From contig SVHJ01000001.1 of assembly GCA_015055835.1 (NCBI GenBank), positions 62,001-126,000 on the forward strand: a stretch of DNA of 64,000 nucleotides, in the 5' to 3' direction. This DNA is from Clostridiales bacterium (GTDB lineage: Bacteria > Bacillota > Clostridia > Christensenellales > Borkfalkiaceae). Shown one piece after another: positions 16,976 through 22,634 of the stretch. The notes below the pieces were generated by a model. That model was not told where the DNA came from. It did not search any database and was given only the letters and a program-made list of their open reading frames with translations. The first letter of the stretch is position 1, and every line of letters starts with the position of its first letter. Position numbers and translations under genes: made by a program.

Positions 16976-17896
16976 TTAATTAGTTCTTTTTATACGTCCC
17001 AAACACCAAGACGAATCCTTAATTTCCGTTGGGCTATAAGTATGATGATACAAGTCGTTAACGGTTATATTTTCGCTATTCGAAAAATCCCCACGAAGAT
17101 AAAAATCAGGCGGATAATAAATATCAAAAGTAGTATCGTACTTATTTTTATCCACGTTAGTCACTTTTGAATAAGGGTCGTGCTCTATATATAGATATAT
17201 AGTGCCTTTATCCTGAGCCATAGTGTACGTGCCTTCAATAACAACGTCACCTTTTCTATATTGAAACAATTCTCTTCCTGTAGGCTTTTCCGTTAAAAAG
17301 TAAAAACTTTCCCCGCTTTCCAAACTATACGTACCACTAGGAACATAAGGTTCATTAACTCCAAAATAGTTGTTTGTTTCTTGTTTATATTCCTTACCTT
17401 CTAAAACGTAAGACCCCATTTTATACGGCAACTCACTAATTCTATAAATATGCGTATAAATAGAGGCGTCTATCATCCCTAAATCTTCTTCTTGAGTCAT
17501 TATGGTAAATTGAGTAAAGTCGTTTTTAAAGTCTTCAACGTATGAACCAATCCAATCTTCTTTTTGTTTATCAGTTCTCGTAAATATAAAAGTTAAGGGA
17601 GTTAAAACGTCTTTTCCTAATCCTTTATAAACAACTCTAAAAGTACCGTTATATTTAGAAACCCCGTCTTCACAATAGGAAAAAGTCATAACACCTTTAG
17701 CCCCGTTAAAAGTAAAATAAGTATCGTCATCGTCCAAAAGTTGCCACTTACCCGTCGAAGATGTTAATTCATCATCGATTTTTTCCACGTTATTATTCGT
17801 CCCACCGAACACCCCATCAAACATACCACAACTAGTAAGCGTAAAACAAACTAACGTAAATAAAATTAGAAATAATAACTTGAAATTTTTTTTCAT
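16976..17896 (-). CDS. Lipoprotein of unknown function
   Basis: 306 residues. A signal peptide with a lipobox (FTLTSC, Cys23) predicts a membrane-anchored lipoprotein on the cell surface. The mature part has repeated beta-rich segments of the type 'SSTGKWQLLDDDDTYFTFNGAKGVMTF' and 'SGTYSLESGESFYFLTEKPTGRELF', which suggests two related lipocalin-like or beta-sandwich halves (inference). I recognise no family. A purine-rich GGGAGAGAG stretch precedes the ATG. Upstream lies the structured-repeat region and tRNA-Leu(GAG). Confidence 0.75.
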   Translation of the reverse strand: MKKNFKLLFLILFTLVCFTLTSCGMFDGVFGGTNNNVEKIDDELTSSTGKWQLLDDDDTYFTFNGAKGVMTFSYCEDGVSKYNGTFRVVYKGLGKDVLTPLTFIFTRTDKQKEDWIGSYVEDFKNDFTQFTIMTQEEDLGMIDASIYTHIYRISELPYKMGSYVLEGKEYKQETNNYFGVNEPYVPSGTYSLESGESFYFLTEKPTGRELFQYRKGDVVIEGTYTMAQDKGTIYLYIEHDPYSKVTNVDKNKYDTTFDIYYPPDFYLRGDFSNSENITVNDLYHHTYSPTEIKDSSWCLGRIKRTN

Positions 17897-17988: not shown

Positions 17989-18060
17989 GTAAAGGAGTGA
18001 AAAGTTATAAAGTCTTTGCTTTTTTTTGCAAAAAAAAGCAAGACCAAAAAGCCTTGCTTT
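17989..18060. repeat. Structured repeat unit, copy 3 (most degenerate)
   Basis: Plus-strand reading: AAAGGAG, then ATAAA, GTC, a long apical stem (TTTGCTTTTTTT / AAAAAAAAGCAA), GAC, CAAAA, AGCCTTGC. It shares its flanks and internal loop with the units at 18187-18255 and 18312-18378, but the outer stem has decayed (AAAAGTT opposite AGCCTTGC). Non-coding; strand of function unknown. Confidence 0.6.
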
Positions 18061-18078
18061 AAAAACTCAAATAAAAAA

Positions 18079-18115
18079 ATCCTAAAAAGATTTTTGAAAA
18101 AAATATTTTTAGGAT
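18079..18115. repeat. Hairpin repeat, copy 1
   Basis: ATCCTAAAAA and TTTTTAGGAT form a perfect 10-bp stem. An almost identical element lies at 18274-18310. On the minus strand the stem is followed by TTTTTTTATTT, so it can act as a terminator. Confidence 0.7.
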
Positions 18116-18147
18116 AAAAGGAAAAGCCCGCTATCTATTTAAAAAAC

Positions 18148-18186
18148 ACAAACAAAAGATTTTGCAACGCAAAAGGTTTTGTTTGT
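18148..18186. repeat. Long hairpin between repeat units
   Basis: ACAAACAAAA pairs with TTTTGTTTGT, and the inner ATTTTGC with GCAAAA, around a short AAC loop. In the minus direction it is followed by GTTTTTTAAAT and could also terminate transcription. Confidence 0.6.
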
Positions 18187-18255
18187 AAAGGAGGGGCAGG
18201 CTATAAAGTCTTTGCTTTTTTGTAAAGAAAAAAGCAAGACCAAAAAGCCTTGCCT
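18187..18255. repeat. Structured repeat unit, copy 2
   Basis: Plus-strand reading: AAAGGAGG, outer arm GGCAGGCT, internal loop ATAAA, GTC, apical stem (TTTGCTTTTTT / AAAAAAGCAA), GAC, internal loop CAAAA, outer arm AGCCTTGCC with one bulged base. Same architecture as copy 1 at 18312-18378 with a different apical stem. Confidence 0.65.
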
Positions 18256-18273
18256 AAAACATAAAATAAAAAA

Positions 18274-18310
18274 ATCCTAAAAAGATTTTTGAAAAAAATA
18301 TTTTTAGGAT
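18274..18310 (-). terminator. Hairpin repeat copy 2; likely terminator of tRNA-Leu(GAG)
   Basis: Same ATCCTAAAAA / TTTTTAGGAT stem as at 18079-18115. On the minus strand it is followed by TTTTTTTATTTTA, and it is the first strong intrinsic terminator after the minus-strand tRNA. Confidence 0.65.
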
Positions 18311-18311
18311 G

Positions 18312-18378
18312 AAAGGAGTGGCAGGCTCATAGGTCAAGCCGTTGCGAACAGCAACGGTGGACAAAACAGCCTTGCCAC
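18312..18378. repeat. Structured repeat unit, copy 1 (adjacent to tRNA-Leu)
   Basis: Plus-strand reading: AAAGGAG, outer arm GTGGCAGGCT, loop CATAG, GTC, apical stem CCGTTGC / GCAACGG with loop GAACA, GAC, loop AAAAC, outer arm AGCCTTGCCAC. The apical stem is unrelated in sequence to those of copies 2 and 3 but still pairs fully, as expected if the fold is what is conserved. It ends four bases from the tRNA 3' CCA. Confidence 0.65.
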
Positions 18379-18382
18379 GACG

Positions 18383-18465
18383 TGGTGCGAAGGATGAGAC
18401 TTGAACTCACACGGGATTCCCATACGCCCCTCAAACGTACGCGTCTGCCATTCCGCCACCCTCGC
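18383..18465 (-). tRNA. tRNA-Leu (anticodon GAG)
   Basis: 83 bases on the minus strand including an encoded CCA. Acceptor GCGAGGG pairs with CCTTCGC (one G-T), the D arm has GGCGGAATGGCAGACGC, the anticodon stem TACGT / GCGTA encloses loop TTGAGGG giving GAG, a long class II variable arm TGGGAATCCC follows, and the T arm has GTTCAAGTC. It reads CUC/CUU leucine codons. Confidence 0.93.
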
Positions 18466-18523
18466 AAAATTTAATAAAATTTATATTTTAATAATATACA
18501 TTTTTACTTTATTTGTCAATAAT

Positions 18524-22291: not shown

Positions 22292-22378
22292 GCCTCTGTG
22301 GTGAAACTGGCAGACGCGCTGGACTCAAAATCCTGTGGTAGTGATACCGTGTCGGTTCGAGTCCGACCAGAGGCACCA
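22292..22378 (+). tRNA. tRNA-Leu (anticodon CAA)
   Basis: 87 bases including an encoded CCA. Acceptor GCCTCTG / CAGAGGC, D-arm region TGGTGAAACTGGCAGACGC, anticodon loop CTCAAAA giving CAA, long variable arm TGTGGTAGTGATACCGT, T arm TCGGTTCGAGTCCGA. It reads UUG leucine codons. The anticodon stem has one U-U mismatch (CTGGA / TCCTG). Confidence 0.93.
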
Positions 22379-22380
22379 AT

Positions 22381-22411
22381 AAAAAAAGGATACTTGGGTA
22401 TCCTTTTTTTT
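22381..22411 (+). terminator. Terminator of tRNA-Leu(CAA)
   Basis: AAAAGGATAC pairs with GTATCCTTTT around TTGG, followed by a T-run, three bases after the tRNA CCA. Confidence 0.88.
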
Positions 22412-22634
22412 ATTGGGTTTTTAGTCGATTGACTTGAACTGATGGTTCGTTACGTCTTTGACGGGCTACTGTGATGGGCAAAGTGTTGGCAGATGTTGGC
22501 GCCCGACCAGCCAAAAAATGCCAAGTAGCAATACTTGGTATTTTTTTATCTATTGGAAGTAATGGCATATAATCACACGAAGTGTGTATATCACCAACTT
22601 TAGGTTGTATCTTTATATAACTTATTTTGATATT
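22412..22634. other. Non-coding stretch downstream of tRNA-Leu(CAA)
   Basis: No credible gene. It holds a second intrinsic terminator (22518-22547) and two small inverted repeats, CACACGAAGTGTG and CAACTTTAGGTTG, near 22572-22606. The segment 22413-22512 has less A/T bias than its surroundings, which could mean a decayed element, but no integrase or tRNA-like copy was found. Confidence 0.4.
22518..22547 (+). terminator. Second terminator after tRNA-Leu(CAA)
   Basis: ATGCCAAGTA pairs with TACTTGGTAT around GCAA (one G-T pair), followed by six T. Confidence 0.75.

Follow-up and report, generated by a model that had tools for sequence, protein, structure and literature searches.

Candidate mobile DNA cassettes of gut Clostridia, with a conserved hairpin fold, found as an array behind a tRNA-Leu(GAG) gene

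Three structured, non-coding units lie behind the tRNA-Leu(GAG) gene in the stretch of DNA analysed here (64,000 nucleotides from a Clostridiales bacterium, hereafter the window), and we give an about even chance to their belonging to a family, so far undescribed, of mobile and non-coding DNA cassettes from gut Clostridia. Copies of the family share a preferred site, a conserved fold and constant ends, and their presence at the same site differs between species. The full cassette would be composed of a CGTC tag, a bulged imperfect hairpin (S1), a YTCCTYT motif, a second hairpin (hp2) and a tail ending in CCA, which together make 162 bp in the best-defined subfamily. It may be described as a non-autonomous mobile DNA element that homes directly 3' of CCA, above all at tRNA and tmRNA ends.

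The target of the array in the window is a tRNA-Leu(GAG) gene with an encoded CCA (18383-18465, minus strand; ARAGORN, and Rfam tRNA with 45.4 bits). Located 5' of it is a promoter-like TTGACA-17-TATTAT (18491-18519, minus strand), which, judged by its 11 of 12 consensus matches only, is probably the promoter for both the tRNA and the array. The sequence-only reading made before this analysis had left the strand of the units open; in nearly all copies near a tRNA, the tRNA and the element have the same direction, which is the minus strand here. Read on this strand, the order is tRNA CCA, CGTC, S1, CTCCTTT, hp2, T tract, unit 2, a relic of a further unit and the degenerate unit 1. The unit four bases from the CCA is unit 3 (18312-18378) and not unit 1, as had been stated, and the four bases themselves (18379-18382) are CGTC on the minus strand, the conserved tag of the family, which serves as the spacer between CCA and hairpin and is exact in 105 of 134 copies.

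Unit 3, the first behind the tRNA, has an S1 hairpin of 60 nt (18319-18378, minus strand) with the apical stem CCGTTGC/GCAACGG, followed by hp2 (18274-18310, minus strand; inverted repeat I4) and a T run, and the covariance model matched it at 18312-18382 with 71 bits. Unit 2 (18187-18260, minus strand; 88.6 bits) carries an S1 with the apical stem TTGCTTTTTT/AAAAAAGCAA and its own hp2 (18148-18186, minus strand; inverted repeat I5). A partial fourth unit was recognised by sequence comparison as a relic (GATAGCGGGCTTTTCCTTTT, 18116-18135, minus strand), of which a longer form is found behind the tmRNA in G001, a genome of the window's genus (locus L047), and behind this relic stands another hp2 (18079-18115, minus strand; inverted repeat I3). 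The hp2 of unit 3 and that of the relic are the two ATCCTAAAAA hairpins noticed before, each of 37 nt. Unit 1 (17991-18064, minus strand; 71 bits) is degenerate, with its outer stem lost and its hp2 truncated. Most of the shared features listed earlier for the three units were recovered. AAAGGAG is present on the plus strand of all three (18312-18318, 18187-18193 and 17991-17997) and reads CTCCTTT on the minus strand, the unpaired conserved YTCCTYT motif, whose TCCT is found at the 3' foot in 126 of 134 copies; GTC...GAC and the A-rich internal loop are likewise present in each unit; and the two apical stems, unrelated in sequence, are each self-complementary. The common outer stem GGCAGGCT/AGCCTTGCC holds for units 2 and 3 only, since in unit 1 the partner arm GTGAAAAGTT is unpaired. 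Compared with shuffled sequences, clearly stable folds were predicted for unit 2 (z of -4.6 on the plus and -5.2 on the minus strand) and unit 3 (-7.4 and -5.0), and the fold of unit 1 barely beats its shuffles (-1.2 and -2.6). Because the covariance-model scores are 71-89 bits, the three units are not chance matches.

The covariance-model search suggested in the sequence-only reading found further copies, and every pair covaries; the absence of both, named there as the contrary outcome, was thus not observed. Four copies were found by the covariance model in the window's genome (G000, 1.19 Mb). With the first model, which was built from 12 copies, copies were detected in at least 39 of 151 genomes of the host's family, with up to ten matches per genome, and with a second model at the order level in at least 40 of 347 genomes and at least 24 of 138 genera; these counts are lower bounds because 12-32 candidates per genome were scored in the large searches. 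Two more distant genomes of the phylum have two copies each, and all four are behind a tRNA 3' end or its copy. The named records containing the commonest form are from uncultured Clostridia, many of them labelled ruminant gut. Rfam searches at both gathering and permissive thresholds returned tRNA, tmRNA, rRNA and SRP matches and no such family, viral contigs gave no match to the tag-plus-hairpin pattern, and literature searches on tRNA-end repeats gave nothing directly relevant.

The S1 fold is real. The model has 75 positions and 21 pairs, and among 69 distinct sequences 90.4% of the cells are paired, compared with 32-48% after the partner was shifted by 1-3 columns. Changes on both sides were seen in each of the 21 pairs, with 275 such cells against 86 in shuffles. 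Similar values were obtained with the larger set A3 (89.8% pairing against 31-49% shifted; 392 both-side changes against 117 in shuffles), where, as for the smaller set, the alignments behind the stem tests had been fitted to the model, a procedure that favours structure. Distant members have wholly different stems with the pairing kept, and the constant parts are the CGTC tag, one bulged base in the outer stem, the internal loop and YTCCTYT. The unpaired TCCT between the two hairpins is invariant, and it is retained in copies that are antisense to their neighbours.

The preferred site is the 3' end of tRNA and tmRNA genes. In total, 35 of 134 distinct copies start 0-4 nt past such an end on the same strand, for which the chance expectation is 0.01 assuming 46 tRNA/tmRNA genes in 1.5 Mb. 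The targets include Leu, Arg, Pro, Gln, Trp, Ala, Val, Lys, Met, Ser and Glu tRNAs as well as tmRNA. Another 17 copies are behind a CCA-ending stretch, which in most cases duplicates a tRNA 3' end, and the tRNA lies upstream; six of the 26 copies classed as CCA without a visible tRNA abut a tmRNA. The junction is directly after CCA in 54 of the 105 tagged copies and after CCT in 7, with other motifs in the rest. One copy is antisense at a tRNA 5' end (L202), and two tandem copies at L199 are antisense before the start of an ftsH-like gene, named from its sequence alone. About 39 copies have no tRNA nearby and belong mostly to G019, G435 and one other family. The G019 copies (L105-L112) form tandem arrays of divergent S1 units that are not near any tRNA, with a different tail (..GGCGGTAGCAATCAGGATGCAACGG) and with CGG in place of the preceding CCA. 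In G435 (L228, L238-L262), a MITE-like repeat, GGCTCCCCCTAC...GGTAGGGGGAGGC, is found in some 30 copies, about six of which have S1 and hp2 instead of a small central hairpin; this repeat was not counted as an empty site because 11 nt are replaced and there is no clean insertion.

A second kind of element was also seen behind tRNAs, consisting of a terminator, an antisense T-arm copy (for example GGGACTTGAAC), hairpins, and a sense-oriented copy of the final ~20 nt, CCA included, of its own tRNA (L002, L033, L051, L053, L065, L068, L088, L214 and L264). A degenerate example lies in the window at 22292-22520 behind tRNA-Leu(CAA), and at tRNA-Leu(tag) the order of two of its segments is swapped between G000 and G001.

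The ends of the cassette are exact. Eleven distinct cassettes measure exactly 162 bp, CGTC and CCA included, and 108 of their columns are invariant. These cassettes stand behind different tRNA or tmRNA genes or head-to-tail, with unrelated sequence downstream. Among them hp2 and the tail are alike and S1 is variable, and the ends are constant across genera. Turnover was seen between species at the same tRNA, and the evidence for movement consists of such differences between species only. For example, behind tRNA-Leu(taa) in genus g7, two genomes have an S1 unit, of different subtypes, and four have a plain terminator. Similarly, in G062 a cassette, accompanied by a 20-nt copy of the tRNA end, lies between the CCA and a terminator that follows the CCA directly in G024. 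In the window's genus, the first unit behind tRNA-Leu(GAG) (unit 3) is identical at 70 of 71 bases between G000 and G001, with hp2 exchanged and the further units in G000 only. The genes flanking the array are 78-86% identical between the same genomes, and against this background the 70/71 identity points to constraint or a recent exchange, neither of which would be needed by a purely selfish element; this weighs against the mobile-cassette reading. The array in the window may have gained units after the split from G001, or G001 may have lost them. Deletions could have altered the array, and recombination from one YTCCTYT to another, bringing together S1 and hp2 of different units, would give the three units and the relic. 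The adjoining lipoprotein-like gene (16976-17896, minus strand, 306 aa) has no match within the 8 kb around the G001 counterpart, where a 99-aa gene directly follows the tRNA-Leu(GAG) unit.

TnpA-REP and IS200/IS605 enzymes have been reported to recognise a hairpin in single-stranded DNA that carries a bulge, with cleavage at a neighbouring CT or CA (PMC8266576). The tag beside a bulged hairpin and the junctions after CCA, CCT and other motifs resemble such elements. By analogy, the cassettes may move by a single-strand-DNA route as in IS200/IS605 and REP elements, with the tag beside the bulged hairpin guiding cleavage at a short motif. Since the cassette has its own CCA end, the tRNA would stay intact after insertion and a new landing site would be provided, hence the head-to-tail arrays. 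That the units represent a non-autonomous mobile cassette of DNA with both tRNA-end homing and such single-strand movement is, in our estimate, an evenly balanced proposition. The moving enzyme would be absent from most of these genomes or not yet recognised. A search of 13 genomes gave an IS200/RAYT-type Y1 transposase gene in three and none in the other 10, among them G000, which speaks against the mobile-cassette reading. Cassettes near a tRNA are probably co-transcribed with it as a 3' trailer, and about half of them may also supply the terminator.

One rival explanation is that the units are functional RNA, either a structured tRNA 3' trailer or a tRNA-derived small RNA, whose single-stranded CUCCUUU, the same as the anti-Shine-Dalgarno tail of 16S rRNA, would bind ribosome-binding sites. 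It is consistent with the sense position downstream of tRNA promoters, the strong covariation, the invariant unpaired TCCT flanked by two hairpins, and the near-identity of unit 3 in two species. However, structured RNA tolerates G-U pairs and not A-C mismatches, and the S1 stems contain 40 G-T against 49 A-C cells (22 against 32 on 60 cluster representatives), whereas tRNA stems at the same loci contain 108 against 16; although these cells are not independent events, the missing G-T excess is suggestive of a fold that is maintained as DNA, or on either strand. The 41 A-C against 2 G-T cells in the hp2 stems were left unused because they look like one inherited position counted many times. The turnover at the same tRNA, the G001 tRNA-Leu(tag) site that retains a plain terminator half only, and the TCCT kept in antisense copies also argue against such a function, which we regard as unlikely. 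The sequence-only reading had offered 'RNA element or mobile structured repeat'; many copies, covariation, exact cassette ends, and presence or absence in relatives support the second well, and given stems without a tRNA-like G-U excess we do not favour an RNA element as the source of fold conservation. The conservation of unit 3 beside the tRNA allows an added trailer role.

Integration and duplication by known routes were considered as well. tRNA 3' ends are attachment sites of integrases, and a tyrosine recombinase could integrate the cassettes like small integrative elements. Several cassettes are flanked by copies of the last ~20 nt of the tRNA itself, and some end in such a copy, as expected of this integration and counting against the single-strand reading; furthermore, among 12 genomes tested, 10 gave a single strong match to the recombinase family. 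The only match in G000 is XerS-like (348 aa; G000:C13, L168:1477-2523) and lies near a gene that resembles lexA by sequence. Nevertheless, the 162-bp cassettes share CCA or CCACCA with their targets and not 20 nt, such enzymes need no constant folded hairpin at the junction, and G007 has five copies, yet a weak match to the family; integration of this type seems to us quite unlikely. We judge it improbable that local and inverted duplication of ordinary intrinsic tRNA terminators gave rise to the units. The terminator scan did find a terminator-like hairpin in unit 1 (18060-18035) and in the 5' half of unit 2 (18255-18232), and one with a T run in the tRNA direction in 18 of 37 tRNA-abutting copies, in 16 of 37 copies behind CCA fragments and in 11 of 52 others. 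The earlier alternative of a local duplication of terminators would thus explain a part only, as unit 3, like half of the tRNA-abutting copies, has no such hairpin. Duplication of terminators alone accounts neither for unit 3 nor for the constant 162-bp cassettes, whose exact ends hold across genera, and it is also at odds with the covariation accompanied by a conserved bulge and flanking motifs.

Several known systems resemble the mobile cassettes proposed here. Integron attC cassettes have in common with them a conserved fold containing a bulged base, a central unpaired spacer, a variable end stem and head-to-tail arrays. However, the R boxes RYYYAAC and GTTRRRY are both found in 0 of 134 copies, the only integrase match in G000, the XerS-like one, is far below integron integrase cut-offs, and the cassettes seen contain no genes. 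The rtT repeats of the E. coli tyrT operon likewise follow a tRNA gene in tandem and contain a copied tRNA 3' end, but the present family has no Rfam match and is dispersed behind many tRNAs. Like GTAG REP/RAYT (TnpA-REP) systems, it has a tetranucleotide at the foot of an imperfect hairpin and junctions after CA or CT; GTAG itself was found in 0 of 134 copies, and no Y1 transposase was found in the same 10 genomes. Besides being attachment sites of integrases, tRNA 3' ends thus collect gene-free elements, and covariation alone is no proof of a functional RNA, as the mismatch pattern here points to a DNA-level fold.

The closest likeness is to the CGTC REPs, which include dRS3 of Neisseria and RPE-4/RPE-6 of Rickettsia (Di Nocera et al. 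2013, PMC3733652). They are 20-40 bp long, with an 8-9 bp stem starting with A-T pairs and directly after it a short unpaired tail, mostly CCA, and come from five phyla that exclude these bacteria (PMC3733652). Both families have CGTC directly before the hairpin, CCA at the other end (of the unit there, of the whole cassette here) and a position at gene 3' ends. The published repeats have no dedicated transposase, and for the cassettes the Y1 search found none in 10 of 13 genomes. In contrast, S1 is a hairpin of about 60 nt interrupted by both a bulge and an internal loop, and after it come YTCCTYT and hp2; CCA is found only at the cassette end, and tRNA ends are preferred. Because the published CGTC REPs are smaller and from other phyla, the cassettes were not filed among them. 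Tentatively, the cassettes may represent a separate class of gene-free elements with tRNA and tmRNA CCA ends as their target, which they would reach by recognition of a folded single DNA strand and rebuild at each insertion, so that arrays arise; a type of enzyme not yet recognised would move them, and the smaller CGTC repeats of other phyla may be a minimal form of the system. The CGTC-tagged repeats were described in 2013 without any moving enzyme, and for that question the Clostridial family supplies defined sequences, whose cassette ends are exact, whose sites occur both occupied and unoccupied, and which prefer the tRNA CCA.
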